From Candidatus Aminicenantota bacterium (GTDB taxonomy: Bacteria > Acidobacteriota > Aminicenantia > JAMOAD01): DNA of 40,455 nt. The stretch spans positions 1-40,455 of the forward strand of contig JAMOUT010000059.1 in the NCBI GenBank assembly GCA_027061995.1, in the 5' to 3' direction. The number at the start of each line of letters is the position of its first letter. Positions within the stretch are counted from its first letter, which is position 1. The position numbers and the translations under genes are program-made. Under the pieces are notes generated by a model. That model saw only the letters and a program-made list of their open reading frames with translations, was not told the DNA's origin and made no database searches. Below, one piece after another: positions 4,955-40,348 of this stretch.

Positions 4955-7262
4955 TATTGATAATTTTAAAAAAGAGGAAAACGGGATATACAAATACTTT
5001 TTTAGTTTCTATTTTTGGATTTCACTTTTATTTGCCGTTATATTCACTTTTATAATATATTTTAATTATCAACCTCAAAAAAAATTAGACTATAAAATAG
5101 GAGATATAGCGAACTCAAACATAAAGGCTCCGCTCACATTTAAAATAATAAACAAAGAAGCAACCGAAAAGATGAAAAAAGAGGAACTTAAAAAGGTTCC
5201 GTTCGTATATGATTATATCTCTGACGCAAAAAAAACTTCGATGGAAAGACTTAATCGTTTATTCAAATATTTTTATAATTTTAATAAATACAAGCAAAGA
5301 ATAAAGGATGAATTCGGTCTTGAAATCGTAAAATCAGATTATAAAATAATATACAACAGGAAGAAATTAATAGAGATAAAAAATACTGTGAAAGGTATTC
5401 TTAATGAATTTTATAATAAAGATATTCTGTTAGACAAAGAAAAACTTATGCAAGAGGGAAAAACAGAAGCGATTCTTAATAAAAACGGGAAAAGATCGTC
5501 AATTTCACTAAATATTATTCAAGGGAATAAAAATGTCCGGGATTTTATTAAAAAATATCTGAAAAAAAGGAACAATTTTGTTTCCAATAACAGCAAATTC
5601 ATAGAAAACATAATATTCGCTGTTTTTGTTCCCATGTATAATAAGAATGAGAATGAATCAAAGCAACTTAAAATCTTAACCGAAAAAAACCTTACCCCGG
5701 TTTACAATCTGATTAAAAAAGGAAGAATGATTGTCAGAAACGGAGATGAGATAGATAGGAAAACCTATAACATAATATCCGAATTAAAAAAGCACCAACA
5801 GATAAATAAAAAACCTTTCTCATTAATTTTTGCAACTTTTCTTTTCATTTTCCTCATTCTTTCAATTGCGGGTTTCGTTATAAAAACATTTGAATTAAAA
5901 TATATAACAAATAAAAAAATATTTAATATAATTCTTATAAATCTACTATTATCATTAATTATCTATAAATTATATCTGCTTTTATCAATACTAACCGCAA
6001 ACAATGGCTCTGATATCTCCATAATAAGCAAAAAAACAGTCCATTTTCTTATCCCTTCCCAAGCTGGAAGCATTATCTTGGCTTTTCTTATTAACTTTAA
6101 TATTGCCATTATTTTCATCATCCTCATTACCATTATCGCAGGTATTTTTCTTATAAAAGATTATTATCTTTTACTCTTTCTCTTTATTACTGCAACCATT
6201 CCGGCACTTAAACTTAAATATTCCCGTCAAAACAAAAGAAGCGAACCGATTAAAATATCCTTATATATATTATTACCAATATCAATCGTATTAATCTTTT
6301 TTTACCACCTGCTCTTTCCTCTACACACATCATCGAATCATCTTTTTACGGAACTACTTGCAGCGGTAATCGGAGCAATAACAACCGCTGTAATAATCTC
6401 CGCCCTTATTCCCATTGAAGAATCAGCTTTTGATATAATATCAAATCTTAAACTTCTCGAATTATCAAATCTTGATTTACCAATCTTCAGAGAGATGGCA
6501 CTTAAAGCTCCCGGAAGCTATCAACACTCGCTTATGGTTGCTTCTCTCGCCGAGCAAGCCGCAAATGATATCGGATTAAATACAGCTCTTGTTCGATGTC
6601 AAGCTCTTTATCATGATATAGGGAAAATAGCACGGCCTGAATATTTCATAGAAAACCAAAGTGATAATAAAACTAACATACACAATACTTTACAGCCTGA
6701 AACAAGTGTTATATATATAAAAAATCATATATCTGACGGCATTGCCATTGCAAAAAAATTGGGACTTCCTCAACAAATCATAGACGGTATAAAGCAACAC
6801 CATGGAACCTCTCTTATAAAATATTTCTATAATAAAGCTCTTGATATTCAAAAGAATAAAAAACAAGCTGAGGATAAAAAAGAGCATGAAGAAAATAATA
6901 AAAACGGAAATGGAGATGAGATTAAACCGAATATTGATGAAAAATTATTCAGATATGCGGGACCAAAGCCTCAAACAAAAGAGACAGCGGTTTTAATGCT
7001 TGCTGACGCGGTCGAAGCATCTTCAAAATCCTTAACACACATAGAAGAGGGAACCTTTAAAATACTTCTTAAGAAAATATTTGCAAATATTATTGAAGAC
7101 GGACAACTTGATGAATCGGGAATAAGCTTGAAAGATTTGGTTATAATTTCCGATTCTTTCTTAAATATATTAAAAAACATATACCACGGAAGAATCTCTT
7201 ATCCGGGATTTGATTTTAATGAGAAAGAGGAAAATGGCGATAAACCTGATAATAAAGATTAG
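4929..7262 (+). CDS. pgpH: 7TM-HD membrane phosphodiesterase (PgpH-like)
   Basis: A large membrane protein (777 residues) of the 7TMR-HD family; characterised members such as Listeria PgpH hydrolyse c-di-AMP. The order is: one membrane helix at about 23-47, an extracytoplasmic domain to about 290, a block of about seven helices from about 297 to 500, then a cytoplasmic HD domain. Metal ligands are visible at H533 (YQHSLM), H562-D563 (YHDIGK) and H624-H625 (QHHG). A charged low-complexity insert rich in K, E and N lies at about 643-670, inside the HD domain. It sits between phoH and ybeY, its conserved place in many bacteria. AGGAG lies 13-14 nt upstream, a long spacing, so a start at the ATG at 4938 is also possible. 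Substrate is inferred from family. Confidence 0.9.
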   Translation: MKNMSIKNSIDNFKKEENGIYKYFFSFYFWISLLFAVIFTFIIYFNYQPQKKLDYKIGDIANSNIKAPLTFKIINKEATEKMKKEELKKVPFVYDYISDAKKTSMERLNRLFKYFYNFNKYKQRIKDEFGLEIVKSDYKIIYNRKKLIEIKNTVKGILNEFYNKDILLDKEKLMQEGKTEAILNKNGKRSSISLNIIQGNKNVRDFIKKYLKKRNNFVSNNSKFIENIIFAVFVPMYNKNENESKQLKILTEKNLTPVYNLIKKGRMIVRNGDEIDRKTYNIISELKKHQQINKKPFSLIFATFLFIFLILSIAGFVIKTFELKYITNKKIFNIILINLLLSLIIYKLYLLLSILTANNGSDISIISKKTVHFLIPSQAGSIILAFLINFNIAIIFIILITIIAGIFLIKDYYLLLFLFITATIPALKLKYSRQNKRSEPIKISLYILLPISIVLIFFYHLLFPLHTSSNHLFTELLAAVIGAITTAVIISALIPIEESAFDIISNLKLLELSNLDLPIFREMALKAPGSYQHSLMVASLAEQAANDIGLNTALVRCQALYHDIGKIARPEYFIENQSDNKTNIHNTLQPETSVIYIKNHISDGIAIAKKLGLPQQIIDGIKQHHGTSLIKYFYNKALDIQKNKKQAEDKKEHEENNKNGNGDEIKPNIDEKLFRYAGPKPQTKETAVLMLADAVEASSKSLTHIEEGTFKILLKKIFANIIEDGQLDESGISLKDLVIISDSFLNILKNIYHGRISYPGFDFNEKEENGDKPDNKD

Positions 7263-33352: not shown

Positions 33353-33958
33353 TCAGATAATATTTTTTTCTTTAAGATAATTGATAACTGTTTCCGTCTC
33401 TTCCTCGATTGTTTGATTGTCAGCATCAAGAATTATCTCGGGTTTAAGAGGTTCCTCATAGGGAGCGGATATTCCGGTAAATTCCTTTATCTCACCCGAT
33501 CTTGCTTTTTTATAAAGTCCTTTCGGATCTCTGCTTTCGCATGTATCGATAGATGCTTTAACAAAAATCTCTATAAATCTACCCTCTCCCGCAAGTTCTC
33601 TGCAAAAATCCCTGTCTTTTCTGTAGGGGGAGATAAAAGCGGTTAAAGCTATAACTCCCGAATCAATAAAAAGATTTGCAACTTCGGATATCCTTCTTAT
33701 ATTTTCGGCTCTGTCTTCCGGAGAAAATCCCAGATTCTTGTTCAAACCATGTCTTATATTATCTCCGTCAAGAACATATGCTAATTTCTTTAATTCATGA
33801 AGCTTATTGGCGACTTCATTCGCAATTGTTGATTTACCCGAGCCTGATAATCCCGTAAACCATAAAATAACCCCTTTTTGATTTAATAATTTTTCCCTGT
33901 CTTCCCTCTTCACCTTATGTGAATGCCAAACAACATTGGTAGATTTTTTCTCTGTCAT
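33353..33958 (-). CDS. cysC: Adenylylsulfate kinase (APS kinase)
   Basis: It phosphorylates adenosine 5'-phosphosulfate to PAPS, for sulfate assimilation or sulfotransferases. The 201 residues carry GLSGSGKST at 36-44, VLDGDNIRHGLNKNLGFS, EDRAENIRRISEVA and the KASIDTCESRDPKGLY region, all standard. AAGGAGG precedes the ATG. No ATP sulfurylase or PAPS reductase is in the window, so the product's use is unknown. It is followed by rlmD on the same strand. Confidence 0.94.
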   Translation of the reverse strand: MTEKKSTNVVWHSHKVKREDREKLLNQKGVILWFTGLSGSGKSTIANEVANKLHELKKLAYVLDGDNIRHGLNKNLGFSPEDRAENIRRISEVANLFIDSGVIALTAFISPYRKDRDFCRELAGEGRFIEIFVKASIDTCESRDPKGLYKKARSGEIKEFTGISAPYEEPLKPEIILDADNQTIEEETETVINYLKEKNII

Positions 33959-34105: not shown

Positions 34106-34134
34106 TTGAAAAATAGTTCAGGATAATATAAAAT
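34106..34134 (+). promoter_or_regulatory. Promoter of tRNA(CAU)-tilS
   Basis: TTGAAA (34106-34111), 17-bp spacer, TAAAAT (34129-34134), predicted start near 34141, six bases before the tRNA. Confidence 0.65.
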
Positions 34135-34146
34135 ACCCAATTATAT

Positions 34147-34218
34147 GGCGGTGTAGCTCAGGGGTAGAGCAAACGGCTCATATCCGTTGCGTCGGGGGTT
34201 CAAATCCCTCCATCGCCA
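34147..34218 (+). tRNA. tRNA with CAU anticodon (Met elongator, or Ile2)
   Basis: A complete cloverleaf of 72 bases. The acceptor GGCGGTG/CATCGCC has one G-U pair and discriminator A. The D arm is GCTC/GAGC, the anticodon stem AACGG/CCGTT encloses loop CTCATAT, and the T arm is GGGGG/CCCTC-type. CCA is not encoded. G1-C72 pairing and the stem lacking three G-C pairs rule out an initiator. The body resembles elongator tRNA-Met, but the tilS gene starts 13 bases later, so tRNA-Ile2 (whose C34 TilS modifies) is a real alternative. Confidence 0.9.
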
Positions 34219-34230
34219 TTTTTTTTATTT

Positions 34231-35586
34231 ATGACAAAAATATTTCTTAAATTCAAACAAAGTATTGAAAAATACGATTTAATCACAAGAAACGATAATA
34301 TCCTTCTATCTTTCTCAGGGGGCCCGGATTCAACCGCGCTTGCATTGCTCCTTCTGAAACTTAAAAAATACATTGATTTTGATTTTTCCCTGATTTATTT
34401 TAATCATAATTTGAGAGATGACAGTGATTTTGAGGAAAAACATGTTCGTGAGTTTGCGGAAAAATTCTCTTTACCTCTTATTGTCATACACCTTAATAAT
34501 CTTAAATCGATAAAATCAAATATCGAAGAAAAAGCGAGGGATGAAAGATATAAATTATTAAAAAGAGAGGCAAATAAAGGAAATTTTAATAAAGTGGCAA
34601 CAGCACATAATCTTAATGATCAGGTGGAAACATTTTTTATAAGACTTTTCCGAGGCAGCGGAAGCGACGGATTATCCTCGATCCCCGTAATTCGTGAGAA
34701 TCTCTTTATAAGACCTCTTATTGAGGTAAAAAAGCGGGAGATTCTCTCATATCTTGATTCTTTAAATATCTCTTATATAATTGATAAAACCAATAAAGAA
34801 CCGAAATATTTAAGAAATAAAATCAGAAATAGTTTAATCCCCCTTATAGAGAAAGAATTTAATCCCTCAATATTAAATACTGTCCGAAATATAATAGATA
34901 TTTTAAAATATAATGATGATTTTATTAATGAGATATGTTTGACTAAAATAGAAGAGCTTTTGATAAACAGAGATAAACTTAATATCCGAAAATTAAAGAA
35001 AGAGAAAGAAGCTGTTCGAAGAGGTATAATAAGGGAATATATAAAAAGAATCAAAGGTGATTTGAGAAAAATAAGTTATAAACATATTGAAACGATTCTA
35101 TCTTTAAAAGAGGGGCAAAAAACAGTTTTACCCGACGGACTGACATTAACGATTGGAAAAGGGATTTTGCAAAAATATAAAAAAAAGGAAACAGAAAATT
35201 TCCTATACACAATAGATAAAATCCCGATTTCCTTTCATATTAAAGAGATTGGAAAACATGTTAAAATTTACAAATCAAAAATAAAACCTGTTTATGATGA
35301 TTCAAGAAGGGGTATTTTGGATTTAAACAAGATAGAATTACCTATAATGGTAAGAAACAGAAAACAGGGGGACAGATATAAACCTTTCAGGTCAAAAGCA
35401 AAATCAAAAAAATTAAAAGAGATTCTCATAGACAAAAAAATCGAAAAAGATATCAGGGATACCCTTCCTCTGTTTATTAATGGAAAAGGAGAGATTATTT
35501 GGATGCAAAACTTACCTGTATCCGATTATTTTAAAACCGAAAAAAATACAAAAGAATTTTTAATTATAGAGATTGAAAAAAAATGA
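34231..35586 (+). CDS. tilS: tRNA(Ile)-lysidine synthase
   Basis: It attaches lysine to C34 of tRNA-Ile2 (CAU), changing its decoding from AUG to AUA. The PP-loop SGGPDST is at residues 29-35. NHNLRDDSDFEE, then TAHNLNDQVETFFIRLFRGSG with DGLSSIP, and the C-terminal RNA-binding domains (RNRKQGDRYKPFRSKAKSKK) complete a 451-residue long-form TilS. There is no ribosome site: after the tRNA come T8 and a few bases, then ATG. The gene is probably transcribed with the tRNA and translated from a very short leader made by tRNA 3' processing (inferred). Confidence 0.94.
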   Translation: MTKIFLKFKQSIEKYDLITRNDNILLSFSGGPDSTALALLLLKLKKYIDFDFSLIYFNHNLRDDSDFEEKHVREFAEKFSLPLIVIHLNNLKSIKSNIEEKARDERYKLLKREANKGNFNKVATAHNLNDQVETFFIRLFRGSGSDGLSSIPVIRENLFIRPLIEVKKREILSYLDSLNISYIIDKTNKEPKYLRNKIRNSLIPLIEKEFNPSILNTVRNIIDILKYNDDFINEICLTKIEELLINRDKLNIRKLKKEKEAVRRGIIREYIKRIKGDLRKISYKHIETILSLKEGQKTVLPDGLTLTIGKGILQKYKKKETENFLYTIDKIPISFHIKEIGKHVKIYKSKIKPVYDDSRRGILDLNKIELPIMVRNRKQGDRYKPFRSKAKSKKLKEILIDKKIEKDIRDTLPLFINGKGEIIWMQNLPVSDYFKTEKNTKEFLIIEIEKK

Positions 35587-35680: not shown

Positions 35681-37774
35681 ATGAAAGAATATACTACTCA
35701 AGAGATTAGAAACATTGCGCTCATCGGACACGGTAATTCGGGAAAAACATCTTTGACATCAGCTATGCTCTTTGATGCGGGTGTGGGAAACAGACTAACA
35801 AAAGTTGATCAAGGAAACACTATCACGGATTTCGAGCAAGAGGAAATCGATAGAAAAATAACCATAAGCACAGGTGTTGCTCATATTGAATGGAATAAAA
35901 TAAAAATAAATATTCTCGATACTCCCGGATACGGTAATTTTTTATGGGATGCTCAAGCCGCATTAAGAGTCGTAGAGGGAGCACTCGTTATGGTTGACGC
36001 ATCATCGGGAGTTGAGGTTCAAACAGAGAAGGGGTGGAAATATGCATCCGATTATGGAGTATCAAGAATAATCGTAATTAATAAGATAGATAGAGACAGA
36101 GCGAGTTTTGATAAAGCGGTGGACAGTATTCAGGATGTTTTCGGAAGAGGATGTATCCCTGTTCAGCTTCCTATCGGAGAAGAGGGGAATTTTAAAGGTG
36201 TTGTTGACCTTATCAATATGAAAGCTTTTGTTTATGAAACCGATGAAAGCGGTAAATTTCAGCAGTCTGATATCCCCGCTGATTTAAAAGATAAAGCCGA
36301 AGAAAAAAGGATGGAGATGGTGGAGATGATTGCGGAACAGGATGAAGAGATTCTTAATAAATATCTTGAAGAGGGGGAACTTTCAACCGAAGATATTATC
36401 AAAGGGTTAAAAGAAGGGGTTAAAAATGAAGAATTATTCCCTATCGTTGTAACTTCAGCCGGAATGAATATCGGAGTTCAGCAGATACTTGATTTGGTTG
36501 TTTCAATCATCCCGTTTCCGGGGGAAACAGGGGAAATCAAGGCAAAACAAAAAGAGGAAGAGATTTCAATCAAAGTTGACTCTTCCGAACCTTTTTCAGC
36601 TTTCATTTTCAAAACTCTTTCGGATCCTTATGCGGGAAGAATAAATATTATGAAAGTTTATTCGGGAACTTTAACACCGGATAGAGTTGTTTTAAATACG
36701 GTAAAAGAGAAAGAGGAAAAAATTGCAAATCTTGTTCTCCTCATGGGTAAAGAACAAACTCCCGTTGAAAAGGTTAATGCGGGAGATATTGTTGCAACAC
36801 TTAAATTAAAAGAGACTTTGACCAATGATACTCTGGCGGATCCTAAAAGGCCTGTTATATTTGAGCCTATCAAGTTTGCGGAAGCTTCCATCTCTTTTGC
36901 TCTCGAACCTAAAACAAGACAGGACGAAGATAAACTTTCAACAGCTCTTACAAGAATCGGAGAAGAGGATCCCACTATCAAATACAGAAGGGATGCTCAA
37001 ACAAAAGAACTTGTTATATCGGGAAACGGACAGCTTCATATTGAGATTATCGTCTCAAAATTAAAGAAAAGATTCGGTGTCGATGTTCTTCTGAAACCGC
37101 CTAAGATTCCTTACCTTGAAACAATAAAAGGAAAAGCTGATATAGAAAGTAAATATAAAAAACAGACCGGCGGAAGAGGACAATACGGACATGTTAAAAT
37201 AAAACTCGAACCAATTCAAAGGGGAAAAGATTTTGAATTTGTGGATGAAATTTTTGGTGGTGCCATCCCTAAGAATTATATCCCCTCGGTTGAAAAAGGG
37301 ATACAGGAAGCAAGACAAAAAGGGATTATAGCGGGATACCCTGTTGTTGATTTTAAAGTCGTTCTCTATGATGGTTCTTATCATGATGTTGATTCATCCG
37401 ATATGGCATTTAAGATAGCATCATCCATGGCATTTAAAAGAGGGGTTAAAGAGGCGAAACCTACTATCCTCGAACCTATTATGAATGTGGAAATATATGC
37501 ACCCGAAGATCAGATGGGAGATATTATGGGAAATCTCAACGGAAGAAGAGGGAAACCTCTCGGAACAGAGCAAAGAGGAAAGATGAGTATAATCAAGGCA
37601 CAGGTTCCTCTTGCGGAGATGCTTGATTTTGAACCCACCTTAACATCGATAACCGGTGGAAGAGGCTATTATACAATGGAGTTTTCCCATTATGAAGAGG
37701 TTCCCGCACAAGTTCAACAAAAGATAATCGAACAGGCAAAGAAAGAGGGAAGGATTCAGGAAGAGGAAAGTTAA
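35681..37774 (+). CDS. EF-G paralogue (EF-G-2-like translational GTPase)
   Basis: A 697-residue translational GTPase with the five EF-G domains. P-loop GHGNSGKT is at 16-23, RKITISTG replaces the usual switch I RGITI, DTPGYGNF is at 80-87, and NKIDRD follows. The canonical EF-G reads AHIDAGKT and DTPGH; here Asp is Asn and the catalytic His is Tyr84, the pattern of the EF-G-2/EF-G-like family rather than the main elongation factor. The C-terminal part (GGRGQYGHVKI, YHDVDSSDMAFKIA) is well conserved. AGGAGG precedes the ATG. No ribosomal-protein genes are nearby, another sign that it is not the str-operon fusA. Its role in translation is unclear. Confidence 0.88.
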   Translation: MKEYTTQEIRNIALIGHGNSGKTSLTSAMLFDAGVGNRLTKVDQGNTITDFEQEEIDRKITISTGVAHIEWNKIKINILDTPGYGNFLWDAQAALRVVEGALVMVDASSGVEVQTEKGWKYASDYGVSRIIVINKIDRDRASFDKAVDSIQDVFGRGCIPVQLPIGEEGNFKGVVDLINMKAFVYETDESGKFQQSDIPADLKDKAEEKRMEMVEMIAEQDEEILNKYLEEGELSTEDIIKGLKEGVKNEELFPIVVTSAGMNIGVQQILDLVVSIIPFPGETGEIKAKQKEEEISIKVDSSEPFSAFIFKTLSDPYAGRINIMKVYSGTLTPDRVVLNTVKEKEEKIANLVLLMGKEQTPVEKVNAGDIVATLKLKETLTNDTLADPKRPVIFEPIKFAEASISFALEPKTRQDEDKLSTALTRIGEEDPTIKYRRDAQTKELVISGNGQLHIEIIVSKLKKRFGVDVLLKPPKIPYLETIKGKADIESKYKKQTGGRGQYGHVKIKLEPIQRGKDFEFVDEIFGGAIPKNYIPSVEKGIQEARQKGIIAGYPVVDFKVVLYDGSYHDVDSSDMAFKIASSMAFKRGVKEAKPTILEPIMNVEIYAPEDQMGDIMGNLNGRRGKPLGTEQRGKMSIIKAQVPLAEMLDFEPTLTSITGGRGYYTMEFSHYEEVPAQVQQKIIEQAKKEGRIQEEES

Positions 37775-38693: not shown

Positions 38694-39188
38694 ATGACAG
38701 GACTTGATTATCTTCTTATCGGAATTATCAGTTTTTTCATTGTTTACGGATTAGTTAGCGGTTTTATATCAAGTGTGATATCAATCCTTTCCACAATCAT
38801 AGGATTTGTTCTTGCTTTTAAATTTAATATAATTATAGGAAAACAACTTCCTTTGGCAGAGAATGCGGGGAGAATGGTTGCTTTTGTTCTAATTGTTATC
38901 CTCGCCATAATCGGAGGTAAACTAATATCTTTCTTATTAAAAAAAATGCTTTTCGGTTCGCTGAAATTAGCTGACCGATTGTTCGGCGGAATCATCGGTT
39001 TTATCGAAGGGTTCGCTATAGCATTCGGAATAGTGTATCTACTTGTTGTTTTTGCCGGAAGTAAAATTACAATGAAAAAAAATTCATTTTCATATTTTGT
39101 TTTTGACACGGGGAAGAGAGTTGTAAATTTTATTCATAAAAACGAGATTAAACAAAACTATGGCGGAAGGTCTAAAAGAAAAATTTGA
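38694..39188 (+). CDS. cvpA: CvpA-family membrane protein
   Basis: A 164-residue inner-membrane protein with about four helices (2-20, 25-45, 60-80, 100-122) and the family start GLDYLLIGIISFFIVYG followed by LVSGF. CvpA is needed for colicin V export in E. coli and for envelope stress tolerance elsewhere. It begins one base after the purC stop with no ribosome site, so translation is probably coupled. The 3' end overlaps the Fis-like gene by 29 bases. Confidence 0.85.
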   Translation: MTGLDYLLIGIISFFIVYGLVSGFISSVISILSTIIGFVLAFKFNIIIGKQLPLAENAGRMVAFVLIVILAIIGGKLISFLLKKMLFGSLKLADRLFGGIIGFIEGFAIAFGIVYLLVVFAGSKITMKKNSFSYFVFDTGKRVVNFIHKNEIKQNYGGRSKRKI

Positions 39189-39487: not shown

Positions 39488-40348
39488 ATGAAGATAGAGC
39501 TTGAATGCTTCCCATGCCTTTTCAATCAATTAAACAGAACCTTAAAATTAATAACCGATGACAAATTTAAAATAAAAGAGATAATAGATGAAATGGGAAT
39601 CAGATTAAAAAACATAAATTTCGATATGAGTCCACCTGAAGCCGGAGCTATCTTATATTCTCTGATTAATGAAAGATTAAAAATAAAAGACCCTTATCAA
39701 AACATAAAAAAAGAAAGTATAAAACTCGGAATAAAACTTTATCCGGAATTAAAAAAACAGGTGGAAGAATCCGAAGACAGATTATTGGAATCTGTTAAAA
39801 TAGCGATAGCCGGTAATATTATAGATTTCGGAGCACAGGAAGAATTTGATATTCAGAAAGAACTCTTAAAAATCAAAGATGAGGAGTTTAATTTAAGTGA
39901 TTATAATCGTTTCAAAGATAAAATAAAAGATTCAAATCAGATTCTTGTTATAGGTGACAATGCAGGGGAAACTGTTTTTGATAGAATATTATTGGAAGAA
40001 TTTAAAGATAAAAAAATAATATATGCGGTCAGAGGATTCCCCACTATAAATGATGCTACAAGAGAGGATGCCATAGCTTCGGGAATTGATAAACTTGCAA
40101 ATATCATAACAACTGGAAGCAATATACCGGGAGTTGTCATCAATAAAACTTCAGAAGAATTTAATGATTATTTTTATAATTCTGATATTGTTATAAGCAA
40201 AGGGCAGGGGAACTATGAAACACTGTCTGAAATTGATAGGGATATCTTTTTCCTGTTTAAAATAAAATGCTCGGTTGTTTCAAATAAATTAGACTTACCT
40301 ATTGGCGAATCAATCCTCCGTTATAAAACCCTAAAAATCGAACAATAA
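39488..40348 (+). CDS. DUF89/ARMT1-like metal-dependent phosphatase family protein
   Basis: A 286-residue protein of the DUF89 family, related to metal-dependent carbohydrate-phosphate phosphatases. The N-terminal domain begins ELECFPCLFNQ with Cys 7 and 10. The Rossmann-like part carries LVIGDNAGETVFDRILLEE, the conserved Asp-Asn metal site, and ISKGQGNYETLSE near the end, with KIKCSVVSNKLDLP after it. Family members hydrolyse damaged sugar phosphates; the substrate here is unknown. AGGAGG precedes the ATG. Confidence 0.87.
   Translation: MKIELECFPCLFNQLNRTLKLITDDKFKIKEIIDEMGIRLKNINFDMSPPEAGAILYSLINERLKIKDPYQNIKKESIKLGIKLYPELKKQVEESEDRLLESVKIAIAGNIIDFGAQEEFDIQKELLKIKDEEFNLSDYNRFKDKIKDSNQILVIGDNAGETVFDRILLEEFKDKKIIYAVRGFPTINDATREDAIASGIDKLANIITTGSNIPGVVINKTSEEFNDYFYNSDIVISKGQGNYETLSEIDRDIFFLFKIKCSVVSNKLDLPIGESILRYKTLKIEQ

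Follow-up and report, generated by a model that had tools for sequence, protein, structure and literature searches.

TilS is the enzyme that separates the decoding of isoleucine AUA codons from that of methionine AUG codons. In the 40,455-nucleotide stretch of Candidatus Aminicenantota DNA analysed here (the window, from a host genome assembly of 2.36 Mb in 104 contigs that is 95% complete), tilS begins immediately behind a tRNA with a CAU anticodon, which raises the question of what this tRNA is and whether its promoter and its 3' maturation take part in the expression of TilS. AUA makes up 466 of the 981 isoleucine codons (47.5%) in 22 ORFs of the window, and with such heavy use of this codon the dose of TilS should matter; the genome is AT-rich, and its AUA codons put a heavy load on tRNA-Ile2 and TilS.

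Anatomy of the tRNA/tilS junction

The locus comprises the following features:
33353..33958, minus strand: cysC (adenylyl-sulfate kinase), the divergent neighbour that bounds the unit (ORF list, profile match)
34106..34134, plus strand: predicted sigma-70-type promoter, -35 box TTGAAA (34106-34111), 17 bases, -10 box TAAAAT (34129-34134) (consensus scan)
34147..34218, plus strand: elongator tRNA-Met(CAU) as assigned below, A73 at 34218, CCA not encoded (ARAGORN; Rfam RF00005)
34219..34230, plus strand: 12-base spacer, the presumed tilS leader, without a Shine-Dalgarno site (sequence, Shine-Dalgarno check, leader comparison)
34231..35586, plus strand: tilS, tRNA(Ile)-lysidine synthetase, 451 amino acids (TIGR02432, TIGR02433, PF01171 and PF11734 over cut-off)
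35681..37774, plus strand: EF-G gene (fusA), with its own AGGAGG site (ORF list, profile match, Shine-Dalgarno check)

The tilS ORF matches TIGR02432 with 184.9 bits (cut-off 93.6) and is the only match to this profile in the whole genome; its C-terminal domain matches both TIGR02433 and Pfam TilS_C (PF11734) over cut-off, and its product has the PP-loop motif SGGPDS. The tRNA was called by ARAGORN and scores 64.6 bits against RF00005. Directly 3' of A73 lies a run of eight T (34219-34226), and 12 bases separate A73 from the ATG of tilS at 34231. The order of CAU tRNA, T8 run and tilS start given in a preliminary description of the locus is borne out, as are its claims that no ribosome binding site precedes tilS (no Shine-Dalgarno match in the preceding 20 bases) and that processing of the tRNA 3' end would leave a leader of about 12 bases, which is counted here as the 12 bases from 34219 to 34230. 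Elsewhere in the window, AGGAGG-type sites occur before cysC, fusA and the ORF at 39488, whereas a site is likewise absent before rlmD and before the ORFs at 38694 and 29398, taking the starts as called. The genes preceding the pair, cysC and rlmD, are opposite to it in direction, and neither hpt nor ftsH was found after tilS in the window by ORF list and profile matches.

Among the 54 loci of the class Aminicenantia that have 60 bases of sequence upstream of the tRNA, all contain a promoter match scoring at least 9.25 within those 60 bases, compared with 10% of shuffles, and the -10 box ends 8-13 bases before G1 in 51 of them. It would be a very unlikely alternative that tilS has a promoter of its own within the tRNA or the spacer while the tRNA transcript ends at the T-run, making the two genes mere neighbours. 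T-runs commonly follow tRNAs directly in this genome, where they could terminate tRNA transcription, and the preliminary description takes the T8 run for a possible partial terminator, but no hairpin-plus-T terminator was called in the sequence between the tRNA and tilS, and the best promoter match within the tRNA and spacer scores 8.25, so near the shuffle mean of 7.76 (a mean derived from upstream regions) that a hidden tilS promoter is unsupported. In 27 of the 54 class loci, A73 and the ATG are separated by 8-16 bases (exactly 8 in 13), a distance that cannot accommodate a second promoter; these 27 short leaders are 72% T, without GG or GAG. The other half of the class loci have a gap of 34-312 bases or an uncertain start, so the near-leaderless form is limited to some families, the family of the window included. 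Transcription of the two genes as one, as the preliminary description had supposed, is probable, there being a predicted promoter before the tRNA and none found for tilS alone. As read from the sequence, the locus shows features of a tRNA-headed mRNA operon: a predicted promoter before the tRNA and no terminator called before the coding sequence.

Identity of the CAU tRNA

The tRNA was identified from its acceptor pairs and by comparison with tRNA-Ile2, with E. coli tRNAs and with relatives from the class. According to the part of PMC12514573 that was accessible, E. coli TilS reads C4:G69 and C5:G68 as its dominant identity elements, and tRNA-Met was barely or never a substrate of the TilS enzymes tested. 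This C4/C5 pattern is present in E. coli ileX and absent from metT and metU. The window tRNA, with its CAU anticodon, carries G4-C69 and G5-U68; its anticodon stem is AACGG/CCGTT, not the GGG/CCC stem of an initiator, and its first pair is G1-C72. ARAGORN found 43 tRNAs in the genome stretches read (tRNA-Ile-GAU and tRNA-Ala-UGC being absent among them), of which three have a CAU anticodon. A separate CAU tRNA on another contig (C29:9555-9628) carries C4-G69 and C5-G68, and the third (C79:107008-107079, locus L018) has an initiator-type GGG/CCC anticodon stem and is the initiator candidate; in the stretches read, one elongator Met gene was seen.

The matches listed for the C29 tRNA in E. coli are at eight genome places, all annotated as tRNA-Ile; the one place examined lies in a prophage. 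The window tRNA gave weak matches in E. coli BLAST, seven of the eight listed being tRNA-Asn, and it was the class comparison, not this search, that decided its identity. All 53 of the tilS-adjacent class tRNAs compared have G4, G5 and the loop CTCATAT. C29-like tRNAs from the class, 29 from 30 loci of the 59 genomes with a match, have C5-G68 and the loop CTCATAA in every case among the matches listed, and pair 4-69 is C4-G69 in 25 of these 29 and U4-G69 in four. The two sets separate at pairs 3-70, 4-69 and 5-68 and at loop base 38. On these features of sequence, the window tRNA is an elongator tRNA-Met and the C29 tRNA is tRNA-Ile2.

The preliminary description had proposed that the tRNA might be tRNA-Ile2, the enzyme gene being expressed off the 3' tail of the very tRNA that the enzyme modifies. 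A CAU anticodon adjoining tilS invites this proposal, but it is hardly credible and was rejected: G4-C69 and G5-U68 stand in place of C4-G69 and C5-G68, and a better candidate for tRNA-Ile2 is found in the same genome, at C29:9555-9628, and in its relatives. Of the circumstances that the preliminary description had itself set against this proposal, an elongator Met identity and a separate tRNA-Ile2 were found, whereas an independent tilS promoter was not. A CAU tRNA should therefore not be named from its neighbour gene. With the window tRNA assigned as elongator tRNA-Met, tilS follows a near-cognate tRNA that is not a substrate of TilS. Autoregulation by binding of TilS to the tRNA part of its own mRNA is held unlikely, since the tested enzymes hardly use tRNA-Met, as far as the accessible part of PMC12514573 goes. 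A partnership with TmcAL was dropped, because this genome has no match to PF05636 (4 of 14 controls have one). Behind the tRNA-Ile2 (L005 769-1482, G000:C29), an ORF with a TTG start lies 17 bases downstream; AAGGAG precedes the TTG, and the product is a coiled-coil/C4 zinc-ribbon protein.

Conservation of the linkage

A tilS gene was matched in 56 of 60 class genomes, the genome of the window included, and its locus was read in 55 of the 56 (G046, which offers only a fragment, was left out). In 54 of the 55, a CAU tRNA, tRNA-Met, precedes tilS in the same orientation; the contig of the 55th (L079) begins inside the apparent 3' end of such a tRNA. In G001, tilS is divided between two contigs and the tRNA is on the contig with the tilS start. 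The linkage is stronger than the preliminary description supposed. As for other neighbours, flanks of roughly 1.5 kb, shorter where a contig ended, show cysC, rlmD, fusA and purC beside tilS in none of 55 other class loci. Counting all flank ORFs, 18 of 1080 locus pairs from different families have an upstream gene in common, and 47 of 1119 have a downstream one; within families, the corresponding figures are 55 of 246 and 70 of 259. Generic frozen synteny was rejected as an explanation, since the neighbours in the window are not kept beside tilS and flank genes are rarely common between families. As controls, two further tRNA junctions of this genome were followed through 30 loci each: tRNA-Ser(GCU)-mutS recurs in 4 and tRNA-Arg(ACG)-tadA in 3, and every one of these loci belongs to the family of the window. 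The tRNA-Met/tilS pair has thus persisted where these two junctions have not. The class-wide order, the promoter in place and the lack of conservation of the two control junctions argue that the linkage is more than chance. The tRNA-Met/tilS pair is not the sole old pair of a tRNA and a protein gene; another is tadA followed on the same strand by tRNA-Ser(CGA), which was found in 25 of 30 class loci (L230-L259), within 200 bases in 23.

Conservation of this kind could arise by promoter lock-in, an explanation to which we give an even chance. It shares co-transcription with the unit proposed below, minus the functional tie: lacking its own promoter, tilS would be stuck behind an essential, apparently single-copy tRNA, any break would cost the expression of TilS, and no tuning of dose would be involved. 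Spacers that cannot hold a promoter, seen in 27 of 54 loci, and the one elongator Met gene seen in this genome favour lock-in, as does the count that 21 of the 43 tRNAs have a same-strand ORF of at least 60 amino acids (homology unchecked) starting within 50 bases downstream, by which the plan is general in this genome. That the other close junctions were not kept in the class speaks against lock-in, as a weak test since mutS need not be essential, and so does the occurrence of the pair with longer gaps, with an intervening gene or in divergent orientation in some lineages, in which lock-in would be expected to be weak. For the conservation within the class, lock-in and a regulatory tie are about equally good explanations; lock-in accounts less well for the cases with a gene between the tRNA and tilS.

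At loci L014, L021, L006 and L212, ORFs that lack a clear Shine-Dalgarno site likewise start 8-12 bases downstream of a tRNA; the junctions are tRNA-Ser(GCU)-mutS (gap 8), tRNA-Leu(CAG) and a 167-amino-acid ORF (gap 12), tRNA-Lys(CUU) and a 474-amino-acid ORF (gap 11), and tRNA-Val(CAC) and an ORF of at least 503 amino acids (gap 8). The plan is therefore not unique to tilS in this genome. TadA deaminates A34 of tRNA-Arg(ACG), and this tRNA lies 19 bases before the GTG of tadA (L027 4560-5300, G000:C33), as in 3 of 30 tadA loci; a pair of substrate and enzyme, the kind sought at tilS, thus exists elsewhere in the genome. The tadA frame (L027 4653-5228) runs through the whole of tRNA-Ser(CGA) (5080-5173) and ends just within the next tRNA, tRNA-Ser(GGA), so that excising the tRNA would remove the tadA stop codon.

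A tilS search joined with a tRNA pattern search extended the comparison to a sample of 149 Acidobacteriota genomes. Linkage on one contig was recovered in 14 of the 15 class genomes in the sample, the 15th being G001. Outside the class, 127 genomes have tilS and at least 107 of these also have a CAU-tRNA match among those listed; in 50 of the 107, representing 23 of 51 families, the listed matches place a CAU tRNA no more than 1.5 kb before tilS, and 48 of the 50 have both genes on one strand. Forty of these 50 loci were examined: 39 have the CAU tRNA, with G4 and G5 in all 39, and the 40th is cut by a contig end. Five large groups (f16, f29, f31, f35 and f39) are without the linkage among the matches listed. 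The tilS frame of L290 and L303 (families f12 and f38) continues without a stop across the entire tRNA, and there is no ATG, GTG or TTG between the tRNA and the conserved part of TilS, as if translation of TilS began within the tRNA sequence; translation and tRNA release would then exclude each other, the opposite of the model for the window. By eye, L310-L319 mostly give the same open-frame picture, although L318 and L319 do have a TTG.

Beyond the phylum, the linkage becomes sparser. Here 80 named loci were considered, in whose flanks no Ile2-type tRNA was called. Nine are class-like (L095-L099, L101, L102, L104 and L124, of which L096 and L104 were assigned to the class by tRNA and contig). 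In 7 of the other 71, several of which are cut short upstream, an elongator-type tRNA lies within 3 kb upstream of tilS: Latescibacterota (L100), Desantisbacteria (L116), Acidobacteriota (L133, on the opposite strand), Omnitrophota (L143), Clostridiaceae (L148), Acidobacteria (L170) and Atribacteria (L171). Provided that the numbering of contigs matches that of records, Clostridium L144, L162 and L166 have elongator-type tRNAs 3.0-4.1 kb upstream of tilS; the pattern search, which covered 40 named genomes, gave no such place beyond these three and perhaps L119 and L168. The tilS-hpt-ftsH cluster of Firmicutes shares the tilS family with the locus in the window, where hpt and ftsH do not follow; an elongator tRNA lies upstream of this cluster in L148 (tRNA-fMet, tRNA-Met, spoIIE, tilS, hpt, ftsH) and, directly, in L171 (tRNA-Met, tilS, hpt, ftsH), hpt being assigned by its phosphoribosyltransferase domain in both.

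A predicted tRNA-headed unit and its relatives

The arrangement is best described by a model that we consider likely, in which tRNA-Met and tilS are transcribed together from one tRNA promoter and the tilS mRNA is left with almost no leader once the tRNA has been released. The predicted anatomy and its conservation give good support to co-transcription of the two genes. The promoter would drive elongator tRNA-Met and then tilS as a two-gene transcription unit, and the tilS mRNA would be made by read-through past the tRNA, since no second promoter fits between the genes. Cutting at the tRNA 3' end would give a tilS mRNA with a 12-base U-rich leader, from which translation would start without a Shine-Dalgarno site. 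In the precursor, a stable tRNA 12 bases from the AUG would crowd the ribosome, so release of the tRNA would help translation; in the predicted fold, the spacer and the AUG are unpaired both in the precursor and after removal of the tRNA. TilS is needed in few molecules, and the output of a strong tRNA promoter would be lowered to that level by the absence of a Shine-Dalgarno site, by the shortness of the leader and perhaps by pausing or termination where the tRNA meets U8. With both genes on one promoter, the dose of TilS would track that of tRNA-Met, the near-cognate tRNA that is to be left unmodified.

This two-gene unit is favoured by the mere 12 bases between tRNA and ATG behind a divergent upstream gene, the elongator identity of the tRNA from acceptor pairs and class comparison, the promoter in a fixed place in 54/54 class loci, the same tRNA before tilS in 54/55 class genomes with gaps of 8-16 bases in 27/54, the persistence of the pair while flank genes turn over and the controls remain at 4/30 and 3/30, the unpaired spacer and AUG, and the precedent of a tRNA excised from the head of an operon, E. 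coli metY-nusA-infB (PMC6511841, seen in part). Against it stand the gaps that are longer or uncertain in the other half of the loci, by which the near-leaderless form is not general, the loci L290 and L303, where the lack of a start codon after the tRNA disagrees with release before translation, and the absence of the linkage from many Acidobacteriota. A further point against the unit concerns RNase Z, for which this genome, 95% complete, gave no match above the curated cut-off, candidate ORFs being judged by eye; the cut at the tRNA 3' end is thereby left without a named enzyme. Its gene may have escaped the assembly, or another enzyme may do its work. Many tRNAs of the genome have no encoded CCA, although RNase Z has no match over cut-off.

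Bacteria have other old pairs of a tRNA and a protein gene, tRNA-Thr/tuf and tRNA-Trp/secE, and this genome has junctions that, by eye, we take to resemble them. Unlike tilS, tuf and secE here have a Shine-Dalgarno-like site before the start, and unlike TilS, their products are not enzymes that discriminate the adjoining tRNA. In the tRNA punctuation of mitochondria, excision of tRNAs makes the ends of mRNAs that have almost no leader. The predicted tilS unit is like it in that tRNA excision would create an mRNA end with hardly any leader, and differs in being a bacterial single-gene unit with putative processing. The plan of the unit is most like that of E. coli metY-nusA-infB, with another tRNA, another partner and a near-leaderless junction. 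In the E. coli metY-rimP-nusA-infB operon, as described in the accessible part of PMC6511841, an initiator tRNA heads the operon of IF2, the protein that handles this tRNA, promoters precede the tRNA, and the tRNA is cut out. A CAU tRNA at the head of a protein operon and a promoter before the tRNA are common to both. The metY operon differs in its initiator tRNA, in a further promoter at the 3' side of metY and in cuts by RNase III (same part of PMC6511841), and metY and rimP are 206 bases apart in E. coli, compared with 12 bases between tRNA and tilS; the unit in the window has an elongator tRNA, and its partner is a tRNA-modifying enzyme that should reject that tRNA. A tRNA-Met/tilS unit was not described in the literature searched, which was mostly titles and abstract openings with little subscription literature, and the parts seen of phage and plastid tilS papers hold nothing on tRNA linkage.

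A bolder reading, which we regard as doubtful, is that 3' maturation of tRNA-Met creates the translatable tilS mRNA and so keeps TilS in step with the competitor of its substrate, in an old arrangement kept for AUA/AUG decoding. Its age would be reflected in its presence in Acidobacteriota and its traces in Atribacteria, Clostridiaceae, Omnitrophota, Latescibacterota and Desantisbacteria. If true, this would be tRNA punctuation in bacteria with a control function for the enzyme that divides the CAU pool between isoleucine and methionine. The probable class-wide tRNA-Met/tilS unit, which in the family of the window has no Shine-Dalgarno site, lends itself to testing whether tRNA maturation sets the dose of an enzyme of decoding fidelity and whether tRNA punctuation occurs in bacteria.
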